In this document: positions 6,938 to 46,787 of the stretch, in pieces
How the letters are laid out: each line of letters starts with the position of its first letter
Numbering within the stretch: the stretch's first letter is position 1
From: Bradyrhizobium sp. JYMT SZCCT0180
GTDB lineage: Bacteria; Pseudomonadota; Alphaproteobacteria; Rhizobiales; Xanthobacteraceae
Direction: 5' to 3'
DNA: 64,000 nucleotides
NCBI RefSeq assembly: GCF_018130165.1
Contig: NZ_JAFCLZ010000019.1
Location: 1 to 64,000 of the forward strand
The notes under the pieces: generated by a model
Databases searched by the model: none
What the model was told of the DNA's origin: nothing
The model's input: the letters and a program-made list of their open reading frames with translations, nothing else
Position numbers and translations under genes: made by a program

Positions 6938-7588
6938 ATGGCCTGGACCCGTGAACAGATGGCCGCTCGTGCCGCCAAAGAGTTGCGCGACGGTTATTAC
7001 GTCAATCTCGGCATCGGCATTCCGACGCTGGTCTCGAACTACATCCCCGACGGCATCGACGTCAGCCTGCAGAGCGAGAACGGCATGCTCGGCATGGGCC
7101 CGTTCCCCTATGAGGGCGAGGAAGACGCCGATCTCATCAACGCCGGCAAGCAGACGGTCAGCGAACTGCCGTCGACCAGCTATTTCTCGTCGGCCGAATC
7201 CTTCGCTATGGTGCGCGGCGGGCATATCGATCTGTCGATCCTCGGCGCGATGCAGGTGGCGCAGAACGGCGACCTCGCCAACTGGATGATCCCGGGCAAG
7301 ATGGTCAAGGGCATGGGCGGCGCGATGGACCTCGTCGCCGGCGTCAAGCGCGTCGTCGTCGTGATGGAGCATTCCGCCAAGGACGGCCCGAAACTCCTGA
7401 AGAGCTGCAACCTGCCGCTGACCGGCGAGAAGGTCGTCGACATGGTGGTGACGGATCTGGCTGTCTTCACCATCGACAAGCACGGCAAGGACGGCATGGC
7501 GCTGATCGAGCTCGCCGACGGCGTCACGCTGGACGAGGTCAAGGCCAAGACCGAAGCCGAATTCCGCGTCGCGCTGAAGAACGCTTAA
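6938..7588 (+). CDS. scoB: 3-oxoacid CoA-transferase, subunit B
   Basis: Subunit B of 216 residues carries the catalytic glutamate in the motif QSENGMLG (about residues 49-56), which forms the glutamyl-CoA thioester intermediate. [17 protein letters not shown] and the [14 protein letters not shown] segment are family signatures, and [20 protein letters not shown] follows. The start ATG at 6938 is preceded by AACAGGAAG. It is co-transcribed with scoA. A dispersed palindromic repeat begins 13 bases after the stop codon and may act as the transcript end. Confidence 0.92.
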
Positions 7589-7601
7589 AGGACGAGGTCT
7601 C

Positions 7602-7690
7602 GTAGGGTGGGCAAAGGCGCTCGTGCGCCGTGCCCACCATCATGAGCAACGCAAGGAATGGTGGGCACGCTTCGCTTTGCCCACCCTACG
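7602..7690. repeat. GTAGGGTGGGC palindrome, copy 1
   Basis: A long imperfect inverted repeat: GTAGGGTGGGCAAAGGCGC at the left end is answered by GCTTTGCCCACCCTAC at the right, with inner arms GTGCCCACCAT and ATGGTGGGCAC. Near-identical copies lie at 33680-33766 and 44806-44896. It sits between the convergent scoB and permease genes, where it can serve as a bidirectional transcript end. Confidence 0.9.
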
Positions 7691-7701
7691 CTTCGTGCCA
7701 C

Positions 7702-28340: not shown

Positions 28341-31805
<3,465 letters not shown>

Positions 31806-31833
31806 CAGGTCTCGCGGACTGGAATTTGGGCAC

Positions 31834-31941
31834 AAAAAAAGGGCGCGCATGCTGCGCGTCCCCTAAGCCAAGAGCGCGGGTTACCCTCGCGCGCGGGTGG
31901 TCTTTAGACCAGATTTCGCACCCGCGAAACCCCCAAAAACG
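31834..31941 (-). promoter_or_regulatory. carB leader with attenuator-like terminator
   Basis: On the minus strand GGGGACGCGC-AGCA-TGCGCGCCC followed by seven T (31834-31863) is a terminator-like hairpin only 30 bases before the carB ATG. Upstream of it are GGTCTAAAGACC (a perfect 12-base palindrome), GCGCGAGGGTAACCCGCGC, and a stem-loop CCCG-TTTTTGGGGGTTTCG-CGGG around 31928-31941. Competing pairings among the CG-rich arms are possible. This suggests attenuation of carB, perhaps by pyrimidines or arginine. Confidence 0.55.
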
Positions 31942-32176
31942 GGCCATCAACCGCGATTTTGGCTATTTTGGGCTTGCCTATGGTCAGTCCGTCTACGCTT
32001 TCGCTGCGCTCCAGCTACGCCGTACACGCTTCGTCCTGACGGTCTCAGCGTGGCTGCGCCACGCGTAGCCCCGATAGATGGAGATTGCCGAGGCCCGTCT
32101 TCGCCCTTCGGGCTTCGCCGTGGCAGCCTTCGCCACGAAGGGGCCTGCCTAGCCGAAGCGGCGGAGCCGCGAAGGC

Positions 32177-32252
32177 TGGAGGCCCGGCCTGGATTTGAAC
32201 CAGGATAAAGAACGATGCACCGTTCTCGCGTTGTCGCTTCCGCCACCGGGCC
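32177..32252 (-). tRNA. Aberrant tRNA-like gene (Cys-like acceptor end, Leu-like D-arm)
   Basis: The minus strand forms a cloverleaf of 76 bases. Acceptor GGCCCGG/CCGGGCC is perfect, T-arm CCTGG-TTCAAAT-CCAGG is perfect, the discriminator is T and CCA is encoded. U73 and an apparent GCA triplet in the loop recall tRNA-Cys. The D-arm TGGCGGAAGCGACAACGCG instead recalls tRNA-Leu, but with the GG of the D-loop missing and only three stem pairs. The anticodon loop is eight bases (GGTGCATC) on a five-pair stem. It is either a decaying tRNA, a specialised non-translational tRNA, or a mimic. The intact stems and CCA speak against random decay. Confidence 0.6.
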
Positions 32253-32310
32253 AAGGCGATCATTACCGATCACGGGCCGGTGAGCTACGTTTACCTTTTA
32301 TTAACCCTAA

Positions 32311-33012
32311 CTAGCGCACCGATGGGTGGTGGGCGATGAAGGTCATCCTCCAGGGATTGTGGCCGATATTGTCGGGGGCGCGCGAAGCGGCGAAGCCGGC
32401 CCGCGTCAGCTTGGCGATCATCTCATCTTCGCTGTAGCGCTGCAGGCCGACGCGGGTGCGCAATTGCCGGTAATCCGACAGGGCCGTAGAGGCGAGGCCG
32501 TAGAGCGCGTCCGTCAGGAAGCCGTGGGAGCTTGCGAATTTCAACAGCGCCAGCACGTCTCGCCCCATGCCGACCTCGGGCCGCAGGATATCGCCCAGCA
32601 CCAGCCGCCCGCTCGGCTTCAGCAGCCGGCGAATGATCGCGAATGCGGAATCCAGCTCTTGCTGCGTCATGTATTGCGCCACCGAGTTCATGACGACGAG
32701 ATCGATCGACTGCGCGTCCATACTCCGGAGCTCATCCAGCGAACGGACGCGGATTTTGGTGTTCGGCGCAAAGCGCGCGATCAGCCGGCCGCGCACGCCG
32801 GGGGCGGGTTCGGCGAGATAGAGTTTTGCGCAGGCGTCCGCCACCTTGGCCGCCGACAGCGCCTCGCCGCAGGCATAGTCCAGCACGACAGCGTCAGGCG
32901 ACGAGATGTAGCCGATGATGTCGCGCGCGATGATCTGGAAATGCAGGTCCCGATGCAGCTTGCTCGCATAGATCGTATGCGTGGAATCGTAATAGTCGAT
33001 CCATTCGTCCAT
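32311..33012 (-). CDS. SAM-dependent methyltransferase
   Basis: The product has 233 residues. A class I Rossmann-like methyltransferase fold is indicated by motif I VVLDYACGEALSAAKVA (about residues 45-61), then LYLAEPAPGVRGRL, the motif IDLVVMNSVAQYM and the RRLLKPSGRLVLGDIL strand-turn, typical of type-11 family enzymes. The motif I glycines are reduced (D-Y-A-C-G-E). The frame extends upstream to 33234 but the ATG at 33012 (MDEWIDYYDSTHTIYASKLH) gives a standard N-terminus. The substrate is unknown. It diverges from dps across 124 bases. Confidence 0.82.
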   Translation of the reverse strand: MDEWIDYYDSTHTIYASKLHRDLHFQIIARDIIGYISSPDAVVLDYACGEALSAAKVADACAKLYLAEPAPGVRGRLIARFAPNTKIRVRSLDELRSMDAQSIDLVVMNSVAQYMTQQELDSAFAIIRRLLKPSGRLVLGDILRPEVGMGRDVLALLKFASSHGFLTDALYGLASTALSDYRQLRTRVGLQRYSEDEMIAKLTRAGFAASRAPDNIGHNPWRMTFIAHHPSVR

Positions 33013-33136
33013 CGGGGCTGCGTCCGGCAAAACAGGGGTTTCCGGCAAGGAACCGCCGGGAAAGTGATGCGTTAGGGTGTTCGGCGGCCAATGTCCAATG
33101 CCACCGCTGTCCGGTTTCCTAACAGGAAGGTTCAAC

Positions 33137-33667
33137 GTGAGCAAAGCCAACAAATCCGAAAAAGTGTCCCCCGAACTCGATACGCCGACCGATCTGCCGC
33201 AGGCCGCGGTGGACAAGATTTCGGCGTCGCTCAACGTGCTGCTGGCTGACGCCTTCGCGCTCTACATGAAGACCAAGAATTTCCACTGGCACGTCTCCGG
33301 CCGGCATTTCCGCGATTACCATCTGATGCTGGACGAGCAGGCGGAGGCGATCTTCGGTACCACCGACCAGCTCGCCGAGCGGGTGCGCAAGCTTGGCGGC
33401 GTCACGCTGCGTTCGATCGGGCAGATCGCAAAGCTGCAGACCATCCAGGACAACAACGAGGCTTACGTCCCGCCGCGCGAAATGCTGCGCGAATTGATGG
33501 AAGACAACAAGCACATGGCGGCCGCCATGCGCAAAGCCCACAAGCTTGCCGACGACCACGACGATACCGGCACCGCGCAGTTGCTCGAACTGTTCGTCGA
33601 CGAGACCGAGCGCCGCACCTGGTTCCTGTTCGAAGCCAGCCGCCAGGAAAGCGCCAACGCGGCGTAG
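33137..33667 (+). CDS. dps: Dps-family ferritin-like DNA-protection protein
   Basis: The protein has 176 residues. It forms a hollow dodecamer that oxidises ferrous iron with hydrogen peroxide and can protect DNA. The inter-subunit ferroxidase site is visible: KNFHWHVSGRHF (His and its partner), then DYHLMLDEQAEAIF with D and E ligands. The Lys/Ser/Glu N-terminal arm (MSKANKSEKVSPELDT) is the usual disordered DNA-interacting tail. The start is GTG at 33137 with AGGAAGG seven bases upstream; the frame continues to 33077, but that part is promoter DNA. The GTAGGGTGGGC repeat follows the stop codon. Confidence 0.93.
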   Translation: MSKANKSEKVSPELDTPTDLPQAAVDKISASLNVLLADAFALYMKTKNFHWHVSGRHFRDYHLMLDEQAEAIFGTTDQLAERVRKLGGVTLRSIGQIAKLQTIQDNNEAYVPPREMLRELMEDNKHMAAAMRKAHKLADDHDDTGTAQLLELFVDETERRTWFLFEASRQESANAA

Positions 33668-33679
33668 TGGTTGTGATTT

Positions 33680-33766
33680 GTAGGGTGGGCAAAGGCGCGT
33701 TGCGCCGTGCCCACCATTCCTGCGCGACATAAGATGGTGGGCACGCTTCGCTTTGCCCACCCTACG
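33680..33766. repeat. GTAGGGTGGGC palindrome, copy 2
   Basis: This copy between the convergent dps and enolase-superfamily genes has the same outer arms (GTAGGGTGGGCAAAGGCGCG and CTTTGCCCACCCTAC) and inner arms (GTGCCCACCAT and ATGGTGGGCAC) as the copies at 7602 and 44806. Confidence 0.9.
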
Positions 33767-33768
33767 AT

Positions 33769-34866
33769 CTAAATCCTGAACTTCATTACCTCTTCCTTGA
33801 ACTGCAGCCCATGTCCGGGCCGCTCCGGCGCGGTGATCATGCCGTTGGCGATCTGCGGTGGATCGACCCAGAGGTCGTCGATCAGCCCCATGTTCTCGCA
33901 CCAGATGCCGTTCGGGATCGAGGCCAGGAGGTGCACGTTGAGTTCGGGAAACAGATGCGGCGCGATGGTGACGCCAAAAGTGTCGGCCAGTGCGGAGATC
34001 TTGCGAAGGTCCGTCATGCCGCCGCGCATCGGGTCGGGCTGCAGGATCGGCAGGCAGGGATTGATAAAGAACGGCCGCAGATCGTAGCGCGTGAAATGGG
34101 TCTCGCCACCGACGACGCGCATGTCGAGCGCTGCTGCGATGCGCTGGTAGCCGGCGAAATCGTCGGCCGGCACGGGTTCTTCGAGCCAGTAGATATCGTA
34201 CTTTTCGAATTTGCGTCCCATCTCGATGGCGACATCGGCGCTCCAGCCCATGTTGACGTCGATCATGATGTCGATGTCGGGCCCGAGCGCCTCGCGCATG
34301 CGGCGTACATTGTCGAGGTCCTGCGCAGGCGTGTGCACATGCGCGACCTGCATCTTGATCGCCTTGTAGCCCTGCTTCACGAAGTGCAGCGCCTTCTCGA
34401 TCATGCCGTCGCCGCCGGCGCCGCGGAAGCAGCCCGAGCCGTAGATCGGGATTTCCGAGCGATAATGGCCCCACAGCCGGTGCAGCGGCAGGCCGGCGCG
34501 CTTGCCCACCGCATCCCACAGCGCGATGTCGATCGCCGACATCGCCATCGCGGCGATGCCGCCGCGGCCATAGGTCATCGTCGCGGTCCACAGGTCGCGC
34601 CAGATCGCCTCGATCGCGGTGGCGTCCTTGCCCTTCACGCGCGGGATGATGCACTCCTCGAGACAGGCCGCGATCGACTTCATCCCCGGGCGGAACACGA
34701 ACAGATAGCCCATGCCGGTAACGCCGCCTGCGGTCTCGACCTCGCAGATCAGGATGTCGCGCGTCGCGCCAAGCGCGGCCCCCTTCAGCCAGGGATCGTC
34801 GGCCCAGGGCAGGCGCAGCATCGTCACGCGGATGTCACGGATGGTCATGTCTGGGTTGGCGGTCAT
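33769..34866 (-). CDS. Enolase-superfamily (mandelate racemase/muconate lactonising) enzyme
   Basis: The protein has 365 residues. Metal ligands are MIDVNMGW (D), YWLEEPV (E) and VVGGETHF (E). The general base of the mandelate-racemase subgroup is APHLFPELNVHLL (His), with a dyad Asp in QPDPMRGGMTD. The lysine pair expected at the end of the second strand is modified: AIKMQVAH has Gln at the second position, so one of the two acid/base lysines is absent. This points to an acid-sugar dehydratase or epimerase-type enzyme using the His-Asp dyad. The ATG at 34866 has AGGGAAA upstream. No transporter or sugar gene is adjacent, so the substrate remains open. Confidence 0.87.
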   Translation of the reverse strand: MTANPDMTIRDIRVTMLRLPWADDPWLKGAALGATRDILICEVETAGGVTGMGYLFVFRPGMKSIAACLEECIIPRVKGKDATAIEAIWRDLWTATMTYGRGGIAAMAMSAIDIALWDAVGKRAGLPLHRLWGHYRSEIPIYGSGCFRGAGGDGMIEKALHFVKQGYKAIKMQVAHVHTPAQDLDNVRRMREALGPDIDIMIDVNMGWSADVAIEMGRKFEKYDIYWLEEPVPADDFAGYQRIAAALDMRVVGGETHFTRYDLRPFFINPCLPILQPDPMRGGMTDLRKISALADTFGVTIAPHLFPELNVHLLASIPNGIWCENMGLIDDLWVDPPQIANGMITAPERPGHGLQFKEEVMKFRI

Positions 34867-35109
34867 CGGACGTTTCCCTGTGCTGGCCCGGATCATGTTG
34901 GCCTGATCTCGGGCAGGGGAAAGTCAATCACATAACGCCGGCGCTGATCCAGCGCTGTGCGTCATGCCTCCAATGCAGCGACGCGACGCGCGTTCGCGGA
35001 GACCCGTTGGCTTTGCTCACCCTGCGCACGCGACAGTAGCTAAATAAGACTGGCGGTCCGGACGGCTTGCGCTACGATGCAAGCGAGCCAGAGCAGCAGG
35101 AGGTCGGAA

Positions 35110-35418
35110 ATGCCTATGTCCGTCTCTATGATCGTATTGGGTTCGCAACTGGTCATGCCCGTCGCTGACGGAGTGCCGAAGTTCGATATCACGCGAAACT
35201 GCAAGCTCGACATTGCCGCTACTGCCGGACTCACCGTCGATCAGTCGCTCAAGACCTGCATCAGCGATGAACAGCAAGCGCGCCAGCAACTCGCAAGCCA
35301 GTGGTCCAAATTCCCTGCGTCCAGCCGCGCGAGTTGCGTCTCGCAGGAGAGCATTGGCGGCACGCCAAGTTACGTCAGCCTGCAGACCTGCCTCCAGATG
35401 GGTCAGTGGGCGCGTTGA
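35110..35418 (+). CDS. Small cysteine-containing protein, unknown function
   Basis: The protein has 102 residues. Residues 1-20 (MPMSVSMIVLGSQLVMPVAD) may act as a weak signal or anchor. The body contains four cysteines with a regular pattern: NCKLDIAATAGLTVDQSLKT-C, SSRASCVSQES and SLQTCLQMGQWAR. DEQQARQQLASQWSKF suggests a helical middle. Similar small exported proteins occur in Bradyrhizobium, to my memory without known function. GGAGG at 35099-35103, seven bases before the ATG, is an excellent ribosome-binding site. It is convergent with the beta-barrel gene, whose stop is four bases past its own. Confidence 0.72.
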   Translation: MPMSVSMIVLGSQLVMPVADGVPKFDITRNCKLDIAATAGLTVDQSLKTCISDEQQARQQLASQWSKFPASSRASCVSQESIGGTPSYVSLQTCLQMGQWAR

Positions 35419-35422
35419 TCGT

Positions 35423-36496
35423 TCACTTCGTGACCGTCCGGCGCGTTGGTGTCACCGTGCTGGTGGGCGCCATCGGCGAGATCGAGAACGTCAGCCAGGT
35501 ATTCCATCCCGATGGCCGGTTCTGCGCCTCGAACTCGCCATAGCCTTTCAGGTTGAGGTATCCCTGCATGTCGCCGACCGGGAACAGAAACCCGATCTGC
35601 GGACCGATGCCGAACACGCGCGAACGGAATCCGCCGAGCTGGGGATGTTGACCAAAGTCGTCGGTGATCTGCTGATATCCATATCCGACGAGGCCGACGA
35701 AAAACTGCTTGGAGAGGAATTTCGACATCCCCCAATCGACGTGGAAGTCGATTCCGTTCTGGTATTGCGTGTCGCGGTTCTTGAAATTGTAGGTGAAGCC
35801 GGCGACGGCGGAGAATTCGTGCCCGGTCGCCGGGTTGAAGTAGGTGTAGCCACCGCCGCCGTCGATCGCGGCGTGCCCGATACCGAGGTTGGAGAGGCGA
35901 CTGGGATCGTAGGCGCCCACCGGAATGTCGCCGGTCAGATAGGTCATGAAGTTGTGCACCCCGGCATTCCACTTCAGCGTGGCCTGCGGATAGAGGTCGC
36001 CGACCGAAGTGAGTGAATCCGAGATGATTCCGGTGCGGGTCGTCACCAACGGTCCGAGCACGGTGGTGAGCGTTCCGTCAATGCCGGTGTTAGCGCGACC
36101 GAACAGGCCGGTGACGCCGATGGCCAATTGTCCGCCAAGCACTGGCGTTCCGAACGTATAGGTGGGATTGAGCAGAACGAGATCGGCCTGCGCGTTCAGG
36201 TTCGCATTGAAGTTGACGTTCACGTTTGCCGGGAATCGCCCGATCTGGATCTGCCTGGCCGCGGCAACGGCGCCCGATGCTTCGACCGTGGTGTGATAAT
36301 ACACCGCGGCCATCGACCAGCCCGGCACCTGCGGCGTCGCCGCGAGGCTAGAGAACCGCCCGGGAAGCCAGTACGAAACGCCGGTTTCGTCCGCGTAGGC
36401 GGCACCGGACATGGATCCGGACATCAGCAGCGCCACGCCAATGCTGTAGCACGTGCGCCGACGGTTGGAATTTCGTTGGGCGATGGTGTGTGTCAT
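35423..36496 (-). CDS. Outer-membrane beta-barrel protein (phenol-MetA/SphA type)
   Basis: The protein has 357 residues with a signal peptide (residues 1-37, ...GAAYADE). It is followed by alternating aromatic strands: ETGVSYWLPGRFSSLAATPQ, then WSMAAVYYHTTVEASGAVAA, down to VFGIGPQIGFLFPVGDMQGY and a C-terminal strand. This is the pattern of the meta-pathway phenol-degradation outer-membrane family related to FadL-type hydrophobic-compound channels. It lies last in the strand that carries the DUF1254 genes, 212 bases downstream of them, so it may be part of the same envelope function. The ATG at 36496 is preceded by GGGGGCAAGCAG. Confidence 0.8.
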   Translation of the reverse strand: MTHTIAQRNSNRRRTCYSIGVALLMSGSMSGAAYADETGVSYWLPGRFSSLAATPQVPGWSMAAVYYHTTVEASGAVAAARQIQIGRFPANVNVNFNANLNAQADLVLLNPTYTFGTPVLGGQLAIGVTGLFGRANTGIDGTLTTVLGPLVTTRTGIISDSLTSVGDLYPQATLKWNAGVHNFMTYLTGDIPVGAYDPSRLSNLGIGHAAIDGGGGYTYFNPATGHEFSAVAGFTYNFKNRDTQYQNGIDFHVDWGMSKFLSKQFFVGLVGYGYQQITDDFGQHPQLGGFRSRVFGIGPQIGFLFPVGDMQGYLNLKGYGEFEAQNRPSGWNTWLTFSISPMAPTSTVTPTRRTVTK

Positions 36497-36708
36497 CTGC
36501 TTGCCCCCGGGTGCCTGGAGATCACAGCGATCAACCCCAGATTGACATGGAATGAATGTCTCGTCGCAAGCCATCGCTCGGAAAGAAGGTCCAGTTCGAA
36601 TATCCGTCGCGGCTGTTGCGCCAAAGCCACGAGACAATCGCGTGTTGTTCACCTCATCGGGCATTGTGAAGGCATCCGCCCCATCTGATGTTCACGTTAA
36701 TTCGCAGA

Positions 36709-38139
36709 TCATTTTACCTGCTCGATGTCGGGCATCTTCCAACTCTTGTCGAAGACCGCCTTTTCAGGACCGTAGAATCGAAACCAGGGGAACCAGTTCG
36801 CTCCCGCCGGCGTGAAAATCCAGTTCGACTCCCGACCGGCGGGCGCCTGCGATCCAAAGTGGATGTCCACCGAGCCGTCGGCGTTCTTGCGCAGCCCTTT
36901 GTCCAATGAATCCAGGGTCGGGCGTGGCAGGTTGAGGAAGAGGGCCGACGTTTCAGCGTTGTAAATGGTGACAGCCCAGAACTGACTTACCGGAACATTG
37001 GCTGGAACGTGCAGTCGATAGGGGTTCTCGCCGCGGAGCGGCTGGCCGCCGTTGTCGAAGTACGCGGCAAGGTAGAAGCTGCCTCCGCCGAGCTTCGCGG
37101 GAGGCAGGAAGAAGCCGGCGAAAGCAGCGCCGCGCGTATCCACGTCGAAATAGTTTGGCACGGCCCACTTGAATCCCGTCTGCGGGCCAATCGGCGGGAC
37201 CAGCAATTTCCACTGGCTGCCCGGCCACCAGTCTTCACCGATCTTAGACTGCTGTCCGAGGAGCCAGGCACCGGCTTCCGCCGCGGCGGACTTCAACTGT
37301 GCCACGGTCGCGGCATCGGGCTTGAACTCCTTGCCCTTCTCGATGCCGAGTGGTCGGAGCATGCCCATCATCTGCAGATCCTGGGGCTGTACCGTCTCCT
37401 CATTCAGCATGCGGGCAAGGCTGGTGTAAAAGCTTTCGTCGAATCGCGCGAGGCCGTCATAGAGGGTGTTGGTCATATCCACGAACCGCGGCGCAGGCGG
37501 GTTACTGGCCTCGGCCAAGGGGTAGACCTTGATCTGCTTTACCAGCGCGTCACCCCTGCGCACGTCCTCTTCCGAGTTGCTCTCCAGGATGGAGCGGAGG
37601 CCGGCGAATGTGTTGTAGGTCTTTGAACGCACGGGGATATAGCCGGCCGGCACCTCGCCCGTGTAGTCGGGTGGCAGCACCAGGTATTTGCCGCCTTTGC
37701 CCTCGAACCCGACGTCGGTGAGCGGTACCTGCCAGGCATCGCAAATGGTGCCCAGGAAGCTGGACCCATTGGCCGCCGGCGGCAGGTCCAGAACCATCGG
37801 CCCATCGTCTTTTATGTTGAAGAAGGCAAAAAGGTAGCGAAGGGTTGTATTGACGGTGAACGACTGGTTCTTCCAGGTGCTGCCTTTGGGCCACCAGATG
37901 ATGTCGCCGTATTTCGCCTTGCCGTCGCGGAAGTAGGCTTGCCGCAGCGAGTCGAAGCTGACGATGGGCATGCCCCAGATGACGGCGTCCACGGCGCGGC
38001 GTTCCAGCATTCGATTGGCGAGTTGTTCGGTGGAGAATTTCGACAGGCTCGTCTGCTGGGCGCCGGCTGGTGCGAATACGGCGGTCAATGCAAAAGTCAG
38101 TACAGCGCCGCAAAGCGTTCGTGTGAGTACAGCTTTCAT
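36709..38139 (-). CDS. Exported DUF1254/DUF1214-type protein, divergent member
   Basis: The protein has 476 residues with a signal peptide (MKAVLTRTLCGAVLTFALTA..., cut after AGA near residue 27). It shares the two-part layout of its neighbours: an N-terminal DUF1254-like half (RAVDAVIWGMPIVSFDSLRQ, then DGPMVLDLPPAA) and a C-terminal DUF1214-like half (QFWAVTIYNAETSALFLNLP and LRKNADGSVDIHFGSQAP followed by ESNWIFTPAG). It is clearly less similar to the three following genes than they are to each other. These exported proteins have no established biochemical role. Its start codon is 108 bases past the stop of the next paralogue. Confidence 0.85.
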   Translation of the reverse strand: MKAVLTRTLCGAVLTFALTAVFAPAGAQQTSLSKFSTEQLANRMLERRAVDAVIWGMPIVSFDSLRQAYFRDGKAKYGDIIWWPKGSTWKNQSFTVNTTLRYLFAFFNIKDDGPMVLDLPPAANGSSFLGTICDAWQVPLTDVGFEGKGGKYLVLPPDYTGEVPAGYIPVRSKTYNTFAGLRSILESNSEEDVRRGDALVKQIKVYPLAEASNPPAPRFVDMTNTLYDGLARFDESFYTSLARMLNEETVQPQDLQMMGMLRPLGIEKGKEFKPDAATVAQLKSAAAEAGAWLLGQQSKIGEDWWPGSQWKLLVPPIGPQTGFKWAVPNYFDVDTRGAAFAGFFLPPAKLGGGSFYLAAYFDNGGQPLRGENPYRLHVPANVPVSQFWAVTIYNAETSALFLNLPRPTLDSLDKGLRKNADGSVDIHFGSQAPAGRESNWIFTPAGANWFPWFRFYGPEKAVFDKSWKMPDIEQVK

Positions 38140-38202
38140 GACTCACTCCCGTGCAAAACGGCACTCAAATTTGCTTTCACTTGCCTTCCGAGCCTGGACA
38201 CG

Positions 38203-38229
38203 CGCGGGATCACGATGACGAGTCCCGCG
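38203..38229 (-). other. Periodic intercistronic hairpin, copy 1
   Basis: CGCGGGA/TCCCGCG inverted repeat between DUF1254-type genes. The surroundings ACACGCGCGGGATC and GATGACGAGTCCCGCG match copies 2 and 3. Confidence 0.8.
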
Positions 38230-38247
38230 GTGCCTTCGGTCTGAACG

Positions 38248-39690
38248 CTACTTCGCCGCCACGACGGCCGGCGGCTTCCAGGTGCCTTCGCCTGGCGGGA
38301 GGATCGAAGGTGACTCCGTCTTCGGCCAGTAGAGCCGCATGACCAGGTAGATCGTGTCGTTCGGTGCCGGCAGCCAGTTCGATTCCTTGTCCGCACCCGG
38401 CGATTTGTTCTGGATGTAGAGCGTCAGTGACCCGTCCGCGTTCTTCTTCATATCCGGAAGCATCGGCGAATTGATCAAATAGCGGTTGATCGGATTTTCG
38501 ATCAGGAGCTGCGACTTGCCGTCATACATGGTGAGCGACCAGAACGCGTTGACTGGTGGCTCCTGGCCCGGCGGGAATGTCAGGGTGTAATTGTGCTTGC
38601 TGCCATCGAGCGTCTGGCCGTCGCCATCGATGCGGGTGAGCGGATAGGTCGCTTCCGCCGGATTATTGCCGTAGATACCGGCCTTGGCGGCGACGGCGCG
38701 CTTGAGCCAGTCGCCATTGTAGTGGGCGTTATCGCCCGGCAACGCGCTGACCTGCCAGCCGTTGATGGTCGTGCCGGCCTTGGCGACGCCTTCCTCGACC
38801 TTCTTCTCGCCTTCCTTCATGCCGAGGCCAATCTCGAGCTTTTGCTCCAGCGGCAGGTCCTTGAAGTTAAAGGTCTTGCCGGGGCCGACGCCAATCTTCG
38901 CGAGCGCGGCGCGGATCTCCTTCTCGTTTTCCTGCACGGGAGCAAACTGCAGCGCAAAATCGAGATACTCGAAGAAGTTGGTTTTCACGAGCTCCTTGTC
39001 GATCTTCGGAAAGTCGATGGCCGTCGCGGCCGTCGTCGTCGGCTGTTTCAGATAGGTGGAAAGTGGCTGCATCTTGTAGCCGGCCTGCACCTTCTTGACG
39101 TTGTCGATATCGCCAGCGTTGAAAAGCTGGGTGCGGAAGATGACGATCGATAGCTGGGTGCTCGACTGGAAGACCTTCTTGATTCCGGGAGGCGTTGCGC
39201 CCTTCCAGTCCGGGCCGACAACCAGATAATCTCCGGCCTCGCTTCCGGTGGCGCGGGTGCCGATGTAGCCATAATTATAGGTGTTGCCGTCACAGAGTTG
39301 GACCGAATAGTAGCGCTTCGGGTCGATCGCCGGCACGGAAATGACGATGGGCTCCGCCCGAAAATCCATCCACCCGATCGAATAGGGCGTGTCGCTGTTC
39401 GGCGTCACGACCGCGGTGTCCTTGTAGGTAAAGACGTTGGGGTCGTTCTTGAACTGGTTGAACGGCGCCTTGAACTGGCTCGAAGTGCGATCGATGGCGA
39501 ATTCATACATGATGCCGTAGTTCATCACGATTGGCAGGCCGAAGATGAAGCCCGCCTCGGCGATGTCCTTTGCCTTGAAGAAGCCTGGACGCTCGGCACT
39601 CGTCTGCGCTTGCGCCGGGATGGAATTCGCCGTCGAGACGGTAAATGCTGCAAGCGCTGCGGAACGAAGAAGGTCGCGTTTTGTAATCAT
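38248..39690 (-). CDS. Exported DUF1254/DUF1214-type protein, paralogue 1 of 3
   Basis: The protein has 480 residues. Its N-terminus, MITKRDLLRSAALAAFTVST, has a Lys-Arg pair in a Tat-like setting followed by a hydrophobic helix and an AQAQ cleavage region. DUF1254 half: IAEAGFIFGLPIVMNYGIMY, then TYKDTAVVTPNSDTPYS and SVPAIDPKRYYSVQLCDGNT. DUF1214 half: NAFWSLTMYDGKSQLLIENP, INRYLINSPMLPDMKKNADG and ESNWLPAPNDTIYLVMRLYW. With the next two genes it forms a set of near-identical length (480 residues each). Export to the periplasm is likely. The enzymatic or binding role is unknown. Confidence 0.88.
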   Translation of the reverse strand: MITKRDLLRSAALAAFTVSTANSIPAQAQTSAERPGFFKAKDIAEAGFIFGLPIVMNYGIMYEFAIDRTSSQFKAPFNQFKNDPNVFTYKDTAVVTPNSDTPYSIGWMDFRAEPIVISVPAIDPKRYYSVQLCDGNTYNYGYIGTRATGSEAGDYLVVGPDWKGATPPGIKKVFQSSTQLSIVIFRTQLFNAGDIDNVKKVQAGYKMQPLSTYLKQPTTTAATAIDFPKIDKELVKTNFFEYLDFALQFAPVQENEKEIRAALAKIGVGPGKTFNFKDLPLEQKLEIGLGMKEGEKKVEEGVAKAGTTINGWQVSALPGDNAHYNGDWLKRAVAAKAGIYGNNPAEATYPLTRIDGDGQTLDGSKHNYTLTFPPGQEPPVNAFWSLTMYDGKSQLLIENPINRYLINSPMLPDMKKNADGSLTLYIQNKSPGADKESNWLPAPNDTIYLVMRLYWPKTESPSILPPGEGTWKPPAVVAAK

Positions 39691-39746
39691 GTGAACATTC
39701 CCTTGCCTGGGTTCGAGCGCGGATTCGATCCTGAATCTCGGGGCAC

Positions 39747-39778
39747 GCGCGGGATCGCGGTAATGACGGGTCCCGCGC
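39747..39778 (-). other. Periodic intercistronic hairpin, copy 2
   Basis: Perfect GCGCGGGA/TCCCGCGC stem 18 bases past the stop codon of the upstream paralogue. No T-run follows, so it is a stabiliser or processing site rather than a terminator. Confidence 0.85.
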
Positions 39779-39795
39779 TGCCTCTCGGCGCAACG

Positions 39796-41238
39796 CTATT
39801 GCAGCGCCACGATCGCCGGCGGCTGCCAAGTTCCTTCGCCCGGCGGTAGGATCGACGGCGCTTCGGTCTTCGGCCAATAGAGCCGCATCACCAGGTACAT
39901 TTCGCCGTTCGGCGCCGGCAGCCAGTTGGATTCCTTGTCGGCGCCCGGTGAATCTTTCTGGAGATGCAGCGTGAGAGAGCCGTCCGGATTCTTCTTCATG
40001 CCTGGCAGCATCGGCGAATTGATCAAATATCGATTGATCGGATTCTCGATCAGCAATTGGCTCTTGCCGTCATACATGGTCACCGACCAGAACGCCTCGA
40101 CCGGCGGATATTGCCCGGCGGCAAAGGTGATTGTGTATCTGCGCTTTGAAGAGTCGAGCACTTCGCCGTTGGCGAGCGTTTTGGTCATGGGGTAGACGGC
40201 TTCCGCGGCGTCATTGCCATAAATGCCGCCTTTTGCGGCGGCGGCCCGCTTCAGCCAATCGCCGCTGTAGAACAGACGGTCACCGAACAGCGATCCGATT
40301 TTCCATCCGTTGACGTCTTTCTGTCCACCAGCGAGATACTTTTCAACCTTCTCCTCACCTTCCTTCATCCCAAGCCCGACTTCGAGTTTGTGTTCGAGCG
40401 GAAGATCCTTGAAGTTGAAGGTCTTGCCCGCGCCAACCCCGATGCGCGCGAGCTTCTCGCGAATGGTGCGTTCTTCCGGGCCCGCCGGTGCAAACTGCAG
40501 CGCGAAGTCGAGATATTCGAAGAAGTTCTTCTTCACCAGCTCCGCATCGACCTTGGGAAAGTCGATCGCGGCCGAAGCGGTCGTTACCGGCTGCTTGAGA
40601 TAGGCCGATAGCGGCTGCGCCTTGTAGCCGGCCTGGACCTTCACGACATTCGGCATATCCTCCGGATTGAAGAGCTGCGTACGAATGGCCGCGAAGGCAA
40701 ACTGGGTCGAGGACTGGAAGACCTTCTTGATTCCGGGCGGAGTGGCGCCCTGCCAGTTCGGCCCAACGACCATGTAGTCTCCGGCGTCGATGCCGGTCGC
40801 GCGGCTGCCGATATAGCCAAAATTGAAGGTGTTGCCGTCGATCAGCTGCACCGTGTAATAGCGGCTCTTCTCAACGGCCGGCACCGAAACAACCATCGGC
40901 TCGGCGCGCAGATCGAACCAAAGCGTGGAGTATGGCGTGTCGCTGTTGGGCGTCACGACAGCGGTGTCCTTGTAGGTCGCGACATACGCCAGGTTTTTGA
41001 TCTGATTGAACGGCGCCTTGAACTGGCTGTTCTTCGTGTCCACGGAGAACTCGTACATCACAGCGTAGTTCATCACGATCGGCAGGCCATAGATGAAGCC
41101 TTCCTCAGCAATTCTTTTGGCCTCGATGATGTCGGGCCATTCCGCCTTGGCCTGCGCGCTCGCCGGAACCGGCGTCATGGTGGTAACTGTCATCGCAGCC
41201 AGTGCTGCGGCACGGAGCAGATCGCGTTTCGTGATCAT
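39796..41238 (-). CDS. Exported DUF1254/DUF1214-type protein, paralogue 2 of 3
   Basis: The protein has 480 residues. It starts MITKRDLLRAAALAAMTVTT with the same Lys-Arg leader. The DUF1254 half carries IAEEGFIYGLPIVMNYAVMY, NSDTPYSTLWFDLRAEPMVV and TVQLIDGNTFNFGYIGSRAT. The DUF1214 half carries EAFWSVTMYDGKSQLLIENP, then INRYLINSPMLPGMKKNPDG and ESNWLPAPNGEMYLVMRLYW. It is closest to paralogue 3. An open frame continues to 41262 but the leader begins naturally at 41238. The intercistronic spacing (105-108 bases) and hairpin recur on both sides, so the array looks like unequal crossover or successive duplication including the spacer. Confidence 0.88.
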   Translation of the reverse strand: MITKRDLLRAAALAAMTVTTMTPVPASAQAKAEWPDIIEAKRIAEEGFIYGLPIVMNYAVMYEFSVDTKNSQFKAPFNQIKNLAYVATYKDTAVVTPNSDTPYSTLWFDLRAEPMVVSVPAVEKSRYYTVQLIDGNTFNFGYIGSRATGIDAGDYMVVGPNWQGATPPGIKKVFQSSTQFAFAAIRTQLFNPEDMPNVVKVQAGYKAQPLSAYLKQPVTTASAAIDFPKVDAELVKKNFFEYLDFALQFAPAGPEERTIREKLARIGVGAGKTFNFKDLPLEHKLEVGLGMKEGEEKVEKYLAGGQKDVNGWKIGSLFGDRLFYSGDWLKRAAAAKGGIYGNDAAEAVYPMTKTLANGEVLDSSKRRYTITFAAGQYPPVEAFWSVTMYDGKSQLLIENPINRYLINSPMLPGMKKNPDGSLTLHLQKDSPGADKESNWLPAPNGEMYLVMRLYWPKTEAPSILPPGEGTWQPPAIVALQ

Positions 41239-41304
41239 GTGAACACTCCTCTGTCGCTTCACCGCTTGGGCTCAAGCGGGTGTCGATTGCAGATTTCGGG
41301 ACAC

Positions 41305-41336
41305 GCGCGGGATCGCGGTAATGACGAGTCCCGCGC
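41305..41336 (-). other. Periodic intercistronic hairpin, copy 3
   Basis: Perfect GCGCGGGA/TCCCGCGC stem ten bases past the stop codon of paralogue 3, with the same loop (TCGCGGTAATGACGAG) as copy 2 apart from one base. Confidence 0.88.
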
Positions 41337-41346
41337 TGCCTCAACG

Positions 41347-42789
41347 CTATTGCAACGCCACGATCGCCGGCGGCTGCCAGGTGCCGTTGCCCGGCGGCAG
41401 CACCGACGGAGCTTCGGTCTTCGGCCAGTACAGCCGCATCACCAGATAGATTGGGCCATTCGGCGCCGGCAACCAATTGGCGTCTTTGTCGGCGCCGGGT
41501 GAGTCCTTCTGGACGTACAGCGTGAGAGAGCCGTCGGCATTTTTCTTCATGCCGGGTAGCATCGGCGAGTTGATCAGATACCGGTTGATCGGGTTTTCGA
41601 TCAGCAGCTGGCTCTTGCCGTCGTACATGGTCACGGACCAGAACGCGTTCACAGGCGGAAGCTGTCCGGCGGGGAAGGTGACGGAGTATTTATTCTTGGA
41701 ACCATCGAGCACGTCGCCGTTGGCCAGATTCTTGGTGAAGGGGTACACGGCTTCCACGGCGTCGTTGCCATAGATGCCGCCCTTGGCGGCCGCCGCCCGC
41801 AGCAGCCAGTTGCCGTTGAAAAACTCGCGATCTCCGAAGAACGATCCGATTTTCCATCCGTTGATATTCTTGAAGCCGTTCTCGAGGTACTTGTCGACCT
41901 TCTCCTCGCCGTCTTTCATGCCAAGGCCGATCTCGAGCTTGTGCGCGATCGGGAGGTCCTTGAAATCAAAGGTCTTGCCGGGGCCGACGCCGATGCGCGC
42001 GAGCTTGGCGCGGATTTCCGCTTCGTCCGGCGTCGCCGGTGCGAACTGCAAGGAAAAGTCGAGATACTCAAAGAAGTTTTTCTTCACCAATTCCTTATCG
42101 ACCTTGGGGAAGTCTATAGCGGCGGCCGCAGTCGTCGTTGGTTGCTTCAGATAGGCCGAGAGCGGCTGGGCCTTGTAGCCCGCCTGGACCTTCTCAACGT
42201 TGGGCATATCGTCCGCACCGAACAACTGGGTGCGATACCCCGCGACGGAGAACTGCGTCGTGGATCGAAATACCTTCTTGATGCCAGGCGGGGGCGTACC
42301 GTTCCAACCCGGGCCGGCGACCATGTAGTCGCCCGCTTCGGTACCGGTCGCGCGGCTGCCGATGTAGCCGTAATTGTAGGTATTGCCGTCTTCAAGTTGC
42401 ACCGCGTAGTAGCGGCCCTTTTCCACCGCCGGCACCGACAGCACCATCGGCTCCGCGCGCAGATCCATCCAGAGGAAGGAATAGGGTGTATCGCTGTTAG
42501 GGGTGACGATCGAGGTGTCCTTGTAGGTAAAGACGCGCGCCTCGTTTTTAATCTGATTGAACGGTGCCTTGAATTGCCCCGAATTCCTGTCGACCGAATA
42601 TTCGTACATGACAGCGTAGTTCATTACGATGGGAAGGCCATAGATGAAGCCTTCCTCGGCGATGGCCTTGGCCTCGCGGATGTCAGGCCATTCGGCTTTG
42701 GCCTGCGCATTGGCCGGGATGGGCGTCATCGTCGTAACTGTCAGTGCAGCTAGCGCTGCGGAACGAAGCAGGTCGCGTTTCGTCAACAT
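41347..42789 (-). CDS. Exported DUF1254/DUF1214-type protein, paralogue 3 of 3 (first in operon)
   Basis: The protein has 480 residues, with the leader MLTKRDLLRSAALAALTVTT and cleavage near ANAQAK. It has the same two halves: IAEEGFIYGLPIVMNYAVMY and NSDTPYSFLWMDLRAEPMVL in DUF1254, NAFWSVTMYDGKSQLLIENP and DANWLPAPNGPIYLVMRLYW in DUF1214. It is the first gene of the four-gene array in transcription order, so the array promoter must lie in 42790-43024, shared with the divergent HlyD-type gene. The Tat-like leader, if functional, would mean export of a folded protein, perhaps with a cofactor. Confidence 0.88.
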   Translation of the reverse strand: MLTKRDLLRSAALAALTVTTMTPIPANAQAKAEWPDIREAKAIAEEGFIYGLPIVMNYAVMYEYSVDRNSGQFKAPFNQIKNEARVFTYKDTSIVTPNSDTPYSFLWMDLRAEPMVLSVPAVEKGRYYAVQLEDGNTYNYGYIGSRATGTEAGDYMVAGPGWNGTPPPGIKKVFRSTTQFSVAGYRTQLFGADDMPNVEKVQAGYKAQPLSAYLKQPTTTAAAAIDFPKVDKELVKKNFFEYLDFSLQFAPATPDEAEIRAKLARIGVGPGKTFDFKDLPIAHKLEIGLGMKDGEEKVDKYLENGFKNINGWKIGSFFGDREFFNGNWLLRAAAAKGGIYGNDAVEAVYPFTKNLANGDVLDGSKNKYSVTFPAGQLPPVNAFWSVTMYDGKSQLLIENPINRYLINSPMLPGMKKNADGSLTLYVQKDSPGADKDANWLPAPNGPIYLVMRLYWPKTEAPSVLPPGNGTWQPPAIVALQ

Positions 42790-43024
42790 GGTGCTGTCTC
42801 CTATCTCGGCTTGAAAGCATCTCGCTCTGGAGCGAGAGAGATTGCGTAGGCAAGAGATCGCGTATGCGGGAGAACGTGCTGCATGGCTGCATAAAACGCC
42901 TCACGGCGTATGCAGGATCGAAACATCGTGCTGGAAAAACAGGAGCAATGAAGCTAACGGTGCAAACGTATCTTCAGCTACCTCCGGGAGAAAAGTTAGC
43001 ACAAACCAATAATGAGGGCCAGCC

Positions 43025-44134
43025 ATGGTCATTATTTTGTGCCTCTACCTAGTCGCGCTGTGGGCCGTGTTCTCGAAGTTCAAACTGGTGCGGTGGGGCT
43101 GGTTGTCCGGCACGGTCTCAATCGCTGTTGGAATATTTCTTCTCGCCGCATTTCTCGCGCTTTTTAATTATCTCACGCCATCGGGGCGCGTGACGGTCAC
43201 CGGCCGCGTGGTGGAAGTGACACCGAATGTGACCGGGCAAATCGTTGCAATCCCGGTCAAGCCGAACGTGCCGGTCAAAGCCAACGATGTGCTGTTTCAA
43301 ATCGACCCGGCGCCATTTCAATACAAGGTCGCGCAGTTGCAGGCCTCGCTCGCTGCTGCAAAGCAGCAAACCGAGATACTGAAAGCGAATTACGAGCAGG
43401 CGACGGCGAATGTCAGCGGGCTCACCACGCAGGTCGCCTACAACAAGAAGCGGCTCGACGATATCCAGACACTTGCCGCTGACGATGCCAGCACGCAATT
43501 CCAAGCGCAGGACAAGCAGGTTCAGTACGAAACCGTGTCGGCGCAGCTCGACGTCGCCAAAGCGGCCCAGCAGAGCGCCAAGCTGGCGATGGATTCGGAG
43601 ATCGGTGGCGTCAACACCTCAGTCGCGCAGCTACAGGCGCAACTCGATAACGCCAACTGGGAATTGTCGCAGACGACCATTCGTGCCCCGGCCGACGGCT
43701 ATGTCACCGTCGTCGCATTGACCGTTGGCGATCGGGCGCTGCAGGCGCGCTCGGCGATGTCGTTCATCGTCGAGAAGGAGATCACGCTGGTTGGAATGTT
43801 TTCGCAGAACGGCTTTCAGACCATCAAGGAGGGCGCAGCTGTCGATATCGTTTTCGACAACGTCCCGGGACGCATCTATCACGCGAAGATTACCGCCATT
43901 CCGAGGGGCATCGGCCAGGGGCAGATCGCCGTGTCGGGAACGCTGGCGCGCACCAATACGTTCGGCGGGGCGACGGTGTTTCCGGCGGAGATATCGATCC
44001 CTGACGGAATGGACCGTGACTCACTTCGTCTCGGAATGTCCGGCAGCGCAACTGCATTTTCAGAAAAGGCGGGTGTGATCGGCCTTCTTGCGTCGATCCT
44101 GGTGTGGATCAGTTCCTATACGGCGTATCTCTAG
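43025..44134 (+). CDS. HlyD-family membrane-fusion/efflux periplasmic adaptor
   Basis: The protein has 369 residues. Two N-terminal membrane helices (about residues 1-15 and 27-50) anchor it. The biotinyl-lipoyl half-domains follow (VTPNVTGQIVAIPVKPNVPV and TTIRAPADGYVTVVALTVGD), with a long alpha-hairpin coiled coil between (LQASLAAAKQQTEILKANYE to MDSEIGGVNTSVAQLQAQLD). The beta-barrel domain comes next, and unusually another membrane segment (GVIGLLASILVWISSYTAYL) ends the protein. The architecture matches YibH/EmrA-type adaptors. No transporter or outer-membrane factor is adjacent, but the divergent DUF1254 array and barrel protein share its intergenic region. GAGGG precedes the ATG. Confidence 0.87.
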   Translation: MVIILCLYLVALWAVFSKFKLVRWGWLSGTVSIAVGIFLLAAFLALFNYLTPSGRVTVTGRVVEVTPNVTGQIVAIPVKPNVPVKANDVLFQIDPAPFQYKVAQLQASLAAAKQQTEILKANYEQATANVSGLTTQVAYNKKRLDDIQTLAADDASTQFQAQDKQVQYETVSAQLDVAKAAQQSAKLAMDSEIGGVNTSVAQLQAQLDNANWELSQTTIRAPADGYVTVVALTVGDRALQARSAMSFIVEKEITLVGMFSQNGFQTIKEGAAVDIVFDNVPGRIYHAKITAIPRGIGQGQIAVSGTLARTNTFGGATVFPAEISIPDGMDRDSLRLGMSGSATAFSEKAGVIGLLASILVWISSYTAYL

Positions 44135-44250
44135 CTGCGCCGATCTGCGTCTTCACGACCGGCGGCGCGCACCGTCTATGCATTTTGTGCCAGATAATCG
44201 TGCCCCAGACGACACAGGACAAATCGTCGCAATCCCGTCGAACCGCAGTA

Positions 44251-44778
44251 TCACCCGCGCTTCCATAGTTTTACTAGCGGACCATTCGCCCCCATCACCG
44301 GATCGGCCTTCGGCAGTTTCACGTTCGGAATCGTCTTCAACGCCTTGGCGTGGTTCTCCGGCGTCGCGCGCGTGATTTCGGCCGGCGGGCCGGGCGGATA
44401 GGCGCCGACGACGGAGAAGTCAGCGCTCGACGACAGGCATTGATGCCCGGTGCCCGCGGGCAGGATCGCGACGTCACCGGCGGCGATCGCGAGGTCCGTG
44501 CCATTGTCGCCGCCGAACCGCACGATGGCGTTGCCGCGGGCGACCCCGAGCACTTCGTGCACGGTGGCGTGGTAGTGCAGATAATCATAGACGCCGTTGC
44601 GCCACATCGCGCCCCAGCCATTGGCGCCGAACAGGCCCTCGATGGTCTTTTCGGGATGGTCGTTGTCGACGTCGATCGCGCGCTTGTAGACCAGGAACGG
44701 CATCTTGCTGTTCGGCACCAGGCCGTCATCGACGAAGTCGAAGGTGAGCGGCTGAAGGTCTTCGCTGACGACGGACAT
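44251..44778 (-). CDS. Cupin-domain protein
   Basis: The protein has 175 residues with a single double-stranded beta-helix domain. Motif 1 reads YLHYHATVHEVLGVARGNAI (H-x-H ... E) and motif 2 AAGDVAILPAGTGHQCLSSS, ending with a metal-binding His. Metal-dependent isomerase, dioxygenase or sugar-epimerase-like roles are possible; the ligand set H-H-E-H is complete. The ATG at 44778 has GGAG upstream; the longer frame to 44949 runs through the repeat at 44806-44896 and is rejected. It is the only gene between the HlyD gene and the thioesterase. Confidence 0.82.
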   Translation of the reverse strand: MSVVSEDLQPLTFDFVDDGLVPNSKMPFLVYKRAIDVDNDHPEKTIEGLFGANGWGAMWRNGVYDYLHYHATVHEVLGVARGNAIVRFGGDNGTDLAIAAGDVAILPAGTGHQCLSSSADFSVVGAYPPGPPAEITRATPENHAKALKTIPNVKLPKADPVMGANGPLVKLWKRG

Positions 44779-44805
44779 GGTCGTGCTCCGGAATCGCGGG
44801 GAATC

Positions 44806-44896
44806 GTAGGGTGGGCAAAGGCGCGCCCTTCGCGCCATGCCCACCAATGCTACCACAAGCACGATGGTGGGCACGCTTCGCTTTGCCCACCCTACG
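44806..44896. repeat. GTAGGGTGGGC palindrome, copy 3
   Basis: Outer arms GTAGGGTGGGCAAAGGCGCG and CTTTGCCCACCCTACG are as in the copies at 7602 and 33680, with the GTGGGCACGCTTCG inner block. Unlike the other two it lies in the promoter or 5-prime region of a gene (the cupin, 27 bases away), with the thioesterase stop 30 bases to its right. Confidence 0.9.
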
Positions 44897-44926
44897 ACAT
44901 CTACGATGTCAACGGATGTGCGCCCC

Positions 44927-45424
44927 TCACGTTCCCTTCGGGATTTCAAACACCAGGCAGGTCGTGGTGGCGTGGGCGAGCAGGCGGCCCTTGGAATCGG
45001 TGATGCGCGCTTCCGCGGTGGCGGCGCGGCGGCCGACGCTGAGCGTGCGGCCTTCCGACTTCACAGGGCCGGTATCCTTGGTCATGCCCTTGATGAAGGA
45101 GATCTTGAATTCCAGCGTGGTGTAGCCGGTGCCGGCCGGCAGCGTAGTGTGGACGGCGAGGCCCATCGCGGAATCCAGCAGGATCGCGGCGTAGCCGCCA
45201 TGCACCGAGCCGATCGGGTTGTAGTGCCGGAAGCCCGGCACGCTGTGAAAGGTCACGACGCCGTTCTCGGCGGTGGAATCGAACGGCTCGACATTCTCCA
45301 TGATCGGCGGCGCCGGCAATCTGCCCTCGAAAATCGCGCGGACAAATTCGAGACCCGTCATCGACGCCATCACGCTGGTCGGCGTCACGCCGTATTCGAC
45401 CTTGGGGGCGGGGGCGGTGTCCAT
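44927..45424 (-). CDS. PaaI-type hotdog thioesterase
   Basis: The protein has 165 residues. The hotdog thioesterase motif is YNPIGSVHGGYAAILLDSAM (about residues 69-88), with the helix over the active site and the catalytic-type Asp near LLDSAMG. HTTLPAGTGYTTLEFKISFI is the second characteristic segment. Such enzymes hydrolyse acyl- or aryl-CoA thioesters, often to clear stalled phenylacetate-pathway intermediates. The ATG at 45424 has AACAGGAAC upstream; alternatives at 45457 and 45454 have no such site. It is upstream of the cupin gene on the same strand, with the palindrome between them. Confidence 0.87.
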   Translation of the reverse strand: MDTAPAPKVEYGVTPTSVMASMTGLEFVRAIFEGRLPAPPIMENVEPFDSTAENGVVTFHSVPGFRHYNPIGSVHGGYAAILLDSAMGLAVHTTLPAGTGYTTLEFKISFIKGMTKDTGPVKSEGRTLSVGRRAATAEARITDSKGRLLAHATTTCLVFEIPKGT

Positions 45425-45511
45425 GGGGCGGTTCCTGTTTAATATTACCGACATCATACTAAGACTTTAGACGGCAATCCAGTGACAGATTGTCATATGC
45501 GGACGACAGAT

Positions 45512-45588
45512 TGTCATGCCCGGACTTGATCCGGGCATCCATCAATCTTCAAAGTGGATGGATTGCCGGGTCAAGCCCGGCAATGACG
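45512..45588. repeat. GTCATGCCCGG palindrome, copy 1
   Basis: TGTCATGCCCGGACTTGATC at the left is answered by GTCAAGCCCGGCAATGAC at the right, with GGATGGATTGC inner parts; a relative occurs at 61064-61152. It ends 9 bases before the carA stop codon. Confidence 0.85.
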
Positions 45589-45596
45589 GTGGCGGC

Positions 45597-46787
45597 TTAC
45601 GCCTTCTTGTTCGCCCGCATCAGATCCGCGAACCGCTTGAACAGGTAATGCGAATCCCGCGGTCCCGGTGAGGCTTCCGGGTGGTACTGCACCGAGAACA
45701 CCGGCTTGCCGTCGAGCTGGATGCCGCAATTGGAGCCGTCGAACAGCGAGATATGGGTCTGCGTGGCACCCTTCGGCAGCGTCTTTTCGTCCACCGCAAA
45801 GCCGTGGTTCATGGACGTGATTTCCACCTTGCCGGTGGTCTCGTCCTTGACCGGATGATTGGCGCCGTGATGGCCCTGATGCATCTTCTTGGTCCTGGCG
45901 CCGACGGCGAGGCCCAGCATCTGATGGCCGAGACAGATGCCGAAGGTCGGCGTGCCCGAATCGATCACCTGCTTGATCACAGGCACCGCGTACTTGCCGG
46001 TCGCGGCGGGATCGCCGGGGCCGTTAGAGAGAAACACGCCGTCCGGCTTCATCGCCAGAATGTCTTCGGCTGATGTGGTCGCCGGCACCACGGTGATCTT
46101 GCAGCCCTCGCCGGCGAGCAGCCGCAGGATGTTGCGCTTGATGCCGTAGTCGATCGCGACCACGTTGAATTTGGGCGCGGTCTGGCGGCCAAAGCCCTTT
46201 TCCCAGCCCCACGGCGTCTCGTCCCAGGTGAAGCGCTGAGCCGAGGTCACCATCGGCACCAGGTCCATGCCTTCGAGGCCGGGCCATTCGCGCGCTTCTT
46301 CCTTGAGTCCGTGCAGGTCGAACTTGCCGTCCTTGGCGTGCGCGATCACGGCATTCGGCATGCCCTTGGAGCGGATCAGCGCGGTCAGCGCACGGGTGTC
46401 AATGCCGGAAAGGCCGATGATGCCGCGCGCCTTCAGCCATCCGTCGAGATGTTTTGCCGAGCGGTAGTTCGAGGGATCGGTGATGGCGGAGCGCAGGATC
46501 ACGCCGCGCGCACCCGGCGTCGCCGCCATGTTCACCGTCTCGATATCCTCGTCGTTGGTGCCGACGTTGCCGATATGCGGGAAGGTGAAGGTGATGAGCT
46601 GCCCGGCATAGGAGGGATCGGTGAGGACCTCCTCATAACCGGTCATCGCGGTGTTGAAGCAGACTTCGCCAACGGCCTGGCCTTCCGCGCCGAGGCCAAA
46701 GCCTTCCAGCACGGTGCCATCGGCGAGCACGAGGAGCGCGGTCGGTTTGAGGTCCGGCCAGGCTGACGAGTTTTCAGGGATTGTCAT
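45597..46787 (-). CDS. carA: Carbamoyl-phosphate synthase, small (glutamine amidotransferase) subunit
   Basis: The subunit of 396 residues hydrolyses glutamine and channels ammonia to CarB for arginine and pyrimidine synthesis. The class I amidotransferase triad is visible: nucleophile in [11 protein letters not shown], and His-Glu in [10 protein letters not shown]. The N-terminal small domain signature is [20 protein letters not shown]. The start codon is ATG 46787. It is on the same strand as carB, but 13.8 kb lies between them, so they are transcribed separately. A CG-rich stem with a T5G5 loop precedes it and also precedes carB (see the regulatory entry). Confidence 0.97.

Follow-up and report, generated by a model that had tools for sequence, protein, structure and literature searches.

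Which function is carried by four consecutive genes for DUF1254/DUF1214 proteins that stand together with a porin-like barrel gene and an HlyD adaptor, and do these genes form one system? The domains are widespread and have solved structures, yet a literature search found no role for DUF1254, in agreement with the first-pass annotation, which knew of no biochemical role for these domains. The locus was analysed within a window, the whole 64,000 nucleotide stretch of Bradyrhizobium sp. JYMT SZCCT0180 DNA, together with other loci of the same genome, of the genus and of other phyla.

Results

Organisation of the locus

ORF and Pfam analyses bore out the tandem array that had been annotated, with three genes of 480 codons and one of 476 (A to D), as well as the barrel behind it (PF13557, E 1e-45) and the divergent HlyD gene (HlyD-type Pfam match). 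The features are:

35110-35418, plus strand: small protein of 102 aa at the island edge, no Pfam family, stays beside the island in relatives
35423-36496, minus strand: barrel, predicted COG4313-type outer-membrane channel, PF13557 Phenol_MetA_deg, 357 aa (E 1e-45)
36709-38139, minus strand: D, type II DUF1254+DUF1214 protein, 476 aa, Sec-type leader (Pfam, tree)
38199-38228, minus strand: hairpin 3' of C, loop shortened
38248-39690, minus strand: C, type I paralogue of a clade other than A/B, 480 aa (Pfam, tree)
39744-39776, minus strand: hairpin 3' of B
39796-41238, minus strand: B, type I paralogue, 480 aa (Pfam, tree)
41302-41334, minus strand: hairpin 3' of A, without U-run
41347-42789, minus strand: A, type I DUF1254+DUF1214 protein, predicted to be exported, 480 aa (ORF, Pfam, fold 3u07 Z 36.7)
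42790-43024, no strand: divergent region between A and HlyD, 235 bp
43025-44134, plus strand: HlyD, EmrA/MdtN-like adaptor with two hydrophobic N-terminal segments (Pfam, NCBIfam)

The genes A, B, C and D are read in tandem from the minus strand and are followed by the barrel, with HlyD diverging from A, and the closest named relatives at these genes are Bradyrhizobium. In all four proteins DUF1254 precedes DUF1214, both above the Pfam gathering score; A and B are 81% identical, C shares 71–72% with either of them and D 25–27% with each of A, B and C. The barrel gene, which is likely to start at 36496 and not at 36664, lies 212 bp behind D. When analysing the 235 bp between A and HlyD no match to a sigma-70 consensus was found.

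History of the DUF1254/DUF1214 proteins

The three 480-codon genes had been taken as a recent, selected amplification of close paralogues, which was not borne out. In a tree computed for 99 type I proteins, A and B share one clade of seven rows (99% SH-aLRT), where the partner of B is the single-copy type I gene of Bradyrhizobium sp. SSUT77 (88% identity, support 100%), whereas C is placed in a different clade (98–99%) with genes of other Bradyrhizobium, Tardiphaga, Bosea and Rhizobium. Since A/B and C thus belong to separate old lineages and dS among the three genes is near 1 (0.9–1.3, with dN/dS 0.13–0.18), the array does not represent a recent amplification but is, as judged from these comparisons, old, under purifying selection and built from at least two lineages. 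The proposed search for diversifying selection revealed no 60-codon window with dN above dS among A, B and C, the highest dN being 0.46.

D is found in a deep separate clade (FastTree, 100%) with long branches and an exact place that is unsure, and is, as judged from the tree, a member of an ancient second subfamily, here called type II. The arrangement of a type I gene with a type II gene immediately behind it was found at 13 other distinct loci, in Bradyrhizobium, Rhizobium, Mesorhizobium, Phyllobacterium, Microvirga, a Rhodobacteraceae MAG, Synechococcus WH 5701 and two Planctomycetes. Among the loci compared the window order I-I-I-II-barrel is the longest array; 80 public-genome loci across phyla hold one DUF1254 copy in 54 cases, two in 21 and three in 5. 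The domains occur in Pseudomonadota, Cyanobacteriota, Planctomycetota, Verrucomicrobiota, Acidobacteriota and Myxococcota, and the type I identity of about 65–80% between phyla suggests a portable and strongly constrained function.

Fold, conserved residues and export signals

A model of A (pLDDT 88) was used for a fold search, which predicts the same fold as in solved members (Z 33–37 over 395–410 residues); other hits, beta-galactosidase domains (Z 4–5) and RetS (Z 3.5), were at noise level. An alignment of 45 proteins including D revealed N97, Y102, D133, R185, D193, Y348, Y388, N398, R402, D418, N437, R451 and several W, G and P residues to be invariant, and no invariant His, Cys or Glu across these proteins, which speaks against an active site of the classical kind built on a metal or a thiol.

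The Tat-like Lys-Arg leaders had been read as a hint at export of folded proteins. The leaders of A, B and C read TKRDLLR, with KR throughout the Rhizobiales type I proteins, and do not match the Tat motif S/T-R-R-x-F-L-K; an RR leader was found once, in Synechococcus (L107), and that of D is Sec-like. KR variants of Tat signals exist, so that A, B and C may still be exported by Tat. Orthologues of about 65–75% identity in Pseudomonas, Variovorax, Planctomycetes, Verrucomicrobia and others contain lipoboxes (LxGC and similar). With lipoproteins as the counterparts in other phyla, export through Tat does not characterise the family as a whole. An envelope location is well supported by the sequences, and the Tat part of the proposal is weakened.

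Hairpins in the spacers

The spacers A-B, B-C and C-D measure 108, 105 and 108 bp and, as previously annotated, each contains a hairpin of the same sequence, after A, B and C respectively; the gap between D and the barrel has none. The GC-rich pattern, GCGGGAC[T/C]CGTCAT...CG.GATCCCGC, lies 12–19 nt past the stop codons and occurs three times in the 8.04 Mb genome, always in the array, with 0 occurrences for a control and never for the reversed pattern, so that the full hairpin is confined to the array and a dispersed repeat was rejected; the 20-base core has one further genome match, with 3 mismatches. The hairpins form stable folds of -26 to -28 kcal/mol (z -2.9, -1.35 and -2.0) and gave no match in an Rfam search, and none of 96 type I genes examined elsewhere carries one. 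Lacking a U-run they are not standard terminators, and no terminator-like match was obtained at the three spacers; a role in mRNA stabilisation or processing may be considered instead. As genes of separate lineages share the hairpin, it was probably copied inside this locus once the A/B and C lineages had met.

The barrel and the HlyD adaptor

The barrel matches PF13557 over residues 106–344 with 156.8 bits (cut-off 22), while its structure model, with about 12 strands, is of low confidence (pLDDT 45) and too poor to judge the fold, which in this channel family is a barrel of 12 strands with the N-terminus as plug; a PDB sequence search gave no match and no catabolic operon was identified beside it. 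Channels of COG4313, including SphA, TcpY and Pput2725 (PMC4493636), have been implicated in taking up hydrophobic or amphipathic molecules (PMC4493636, PMC9581022), and from these family members the window barrel may be proposed to function as an uptake channel. Many type I genes of rhizobia and Pseudomonas have immediately upstream of them a gene for a 270-aa protein, annotated as a transporter in some records; this protein has no Pfam family, and its identification as a COG4313 barrel was unsupported (hhalign probability 5%).

HlyD matches NCBIfam EmrA/EmrK (E 2e-32, 112.8 bits, below the curated cut-off of 390.8) and MdtN (E 4e-32, 111.2 bits, below the curated cut-off of 376), and EmrA in the PDB with E 1e-9. 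No MFS, ABC or RND pump was found beside it among those flanking ORFs, in the window and in relatives, that carry an annotation. At a threshold of E ≤ 1e-60 the subfamily occurs in 19 of the 117 genomes of the genus and in 1 of 385 genomes of the class (its own). Its 20 places, from which a fragment at C6 is left out, have DUF1254 at 17 (one a fragment), a barrel at 13 and either or both at 19, and in two genomes a stop codon breaks the gene. The C6 fragment belongs to a decayed second copy in the own genome (C6:10000-28000, L019) with a truncated type I-like DUF1254 gene at 7227-8658 and the C-terminal half of HlyD (81%) at 12258-12980, among transposase-like genes.

Linkage in the genus

The linkage was studied in 31 same-genus genomes, using 49 strong PF13557 barrels (≥120 bits) and 87 DUF1254 matches. 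For 24 of these barrels a DUF1254 gene is found within 5 kb, about 130 times the 0.18 expected from interval coverage, a null that ignores shared ancestry, with the pairs found at many unlinked sites. Each of the three PF13557 barrels of the own genome has DUF1254 nearby: two are no more than 3 kb away from it, and for the third a DUF1254 fragment lies at a distance of about 10 kb. The linkage recurs in this genome at the unlinked sites C11, C47 and C49.

The first-pass annotation regarded array, barrel and HlyD as one envelope or transport system and named DUF1254 genes scattered without such neighbours in most relatives as the sign of an accidental linkage. Within the genus 41 of the 87 DUF1254 genes lie no more than 8 kb from a strong barrel, and DUF1254, barrel and HlyD are linked; the proposal stands to this extent, but the content is shuffled, and across phyla the majority of the 80 loci are single-copy and most type I loci outside the genus have neither barrel nor HlyD.

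Several HlyD places share a common site, carA-thioesterase-cupin-HlyD ... small-Dps-carB, with differing content in between, and thus form an island that is variable in the genus. In the window this island comprises 28341-46787, between carB (28341-31802) and carA (45597-46787), where the small protein, Dps, cupin and thioesterase mark the edges.

Two further observations were made on neighbouring genes. An exported family of about 240 aa, having no Pfam family and a highly conserved core of FADRPVRAAGH, DPPNAT and LKNPKLEGD (alignment A5), is located near DUF1254 or HlyD in 18 studied loci (for example L026:7974-8747, L025:12295-12972 and L027:9722-10399). Type I genes are also found on Sinorhizobium pSymA and on Rhizobium plasmids (L029, L030, L033), where they are accompanied by a DUF900-type hydrolase and by a TPR gene that bears the annotation adenylate cyclase, and in some cases by DUF2092, DUF2147 and MscS.

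Sulfatases and their maturases

Two observations go beyond the first-pass annotation, the ancient type I/II split described above and a linkage to sulfatases and maturases. Among the best 150 PF00884 matches in the 31 genomes, 22 have DUF1254 no further away than 8 kb (0.8 expected) and 35 have a barrel inside the same distance (0.6 expected), and 38 of the 49 barrels are near DUF1254 or one of these sulfatases. In the own genome, C49:260000-282000 (L020/L145) contains FGE, two sulfatases of the Cys-type (site CTAGR), DUF1622, HAD, three DUF1254 genes, HlyD, a barrel and Cache/cyclase, and C47:312000-340000 (L115/L116) contains FGE and two sulfatases around a fragmented DUF1254 gene, with a barrel 78% identical to that of the window 10 kb from the DUF1254 pieces.

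In Pseudomonas (L108, L110 and L112) the type I gene adjoins a sulfatase, the side-by-side set being the 270-aa protein, DUF1254, sulfatase and anSME. The sulfatase of L112 has a Ser-type site (SSATR), and all three loci contain a gene for a radical-SAM anaerobic sulfatase maturase, which exceeds the curated cut-off in L110 (12541-13809; TIGR03942, 480.7 against 349 bits), where it lies near sulfatase and DUF1254. In two lineages DUF1254 thus goes together with a sulfatase and the fitting maturase, FGE with the Cys-type in the own genome and anSME in Pseudomonas.

Discussion

The implicated uptake role of COG4313, the sulfatase linkage and the multiplied paralogues together lead us to favour, with a probability of roughly 0.42, a reading in which the locus represents one example of an envelope module that recurs in shuffled form and serves uptake and processing of amphipathic or hydrophobic compounds, among which sulfate esters are quite possible. 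A compound would cross the outer membrane through the COG4313 barrel and be bound or transformed in the periplasm by the exported DUF1254/DUF1214 proteins, several of type I and one of type II, with the paralogues widening the range of substrates; HlyD might connect to an inner-membrane step or to product export, and sulfate could be removed by secreted formylglycine sulfatases encoded in sister cassettes. The protein families, the tandem order, the linkage across the genus, the pairing of types I and II and the purifying selection are results of the analysis, while within this model we infer export, the function of the channel (from its family), substrate class and the order of steps. Against it speak that the window cassette holds no sulfatase, that most type I loci outside the genus are without barrel and HlyD, that no inner-membrane pump was found next to HlyD, that hhalign did not tie the 270-aa neighbour to COG4313, that the barrel model is of low confidence and that the literature search gave no function for DUF1254.

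An alternative that we consider rather unlikely is an island for envelope stress and repair, in which DUF1254 and its neighbours guard the envelope when microoxic, iron or osmotic stress sets in, and lipids are moved by the barrel. DUF2092, DUF2721, DUF992, LssY_C, MscS, a Cys-rich repeat and a TPR protein recur around rhizobial type I genes, a B. diazoefficiens DUF1254 gene is lowered in an nnrR mutant (PMC6710368), one in Caulobacter is iron-responsive (PMC3751524) and an Acinetobacter PF13557 gene groups with mla genes by drug phenotype (PMC7481262). Such an island would, however, leave the strong linkage to sulfatases and maturases unexplained, and multiplied paralogues suggest substrate range over housekeeping.

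We regard it as improbable that the neighbourhood is an accident, with a variable carA/carB island gathering mobile envelope genes that do not act together: the island site is shared and its content variable, HlyD is broken in two genomes, the decayed C6 copy lies beside transposase-like genes and single DUF1254 genes are common, but the linkage recurs at the unlinked sites C11, C47 and C49 and, across the genus, covers 24 of 49 barrels where 0.18 would be expected. An export system in which HlyD and the barrel expel a compound modified by the DUF1254 proteins appears very unlikely, although HlyD is of the EmrA/MdtN export type and FapF, discussed with COG4313 in the literature, is a secretion channel; EmrA-type adaptors are known to use TolC and not COG4313, a pump adjoining HlyD was not found, and HlyD is restricted to the genus while DUF1254 is not.

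Returning to the uptake module, the linkage to COG4313 channels, sulfatases and maturases narrows the question to which amphipathic or sulfated compound is handled. A further, rather speculative proposal is that the conserved type I and type II pair could be the periplasmic core of an undescribed system for uptake and desulfation of sulfate esters, working with COG4313 channels and formylglycine sulfatases and spread across phyla.

Compared with known systems, the HlyD of the window resembles the EmrA/MdtN adaptors but differs in that it scores below both curated cut-offs and that no adjacent pump gene was found. SphA, TcpY and Pput2725 have the PF13557 family in common with the window barrel, and DUF1254 partners are not described for them in PMC4493636. 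For the DUF1254/DUF1214 proteins the nearest counterparts are structural-genomics entries without function, the distant Burkholderia 6ans (Z 16.7 to the model of A, 13% identity) and VPA0106 (3u07) and VPA0735 (2p3y, 3vb9) of Vibrio parahaemolyticus; the latter three structures, with 20–27% identity, are predicted to share the two-domain fold of A over the full length, with Z 36.7, 34.0 and 33.0.
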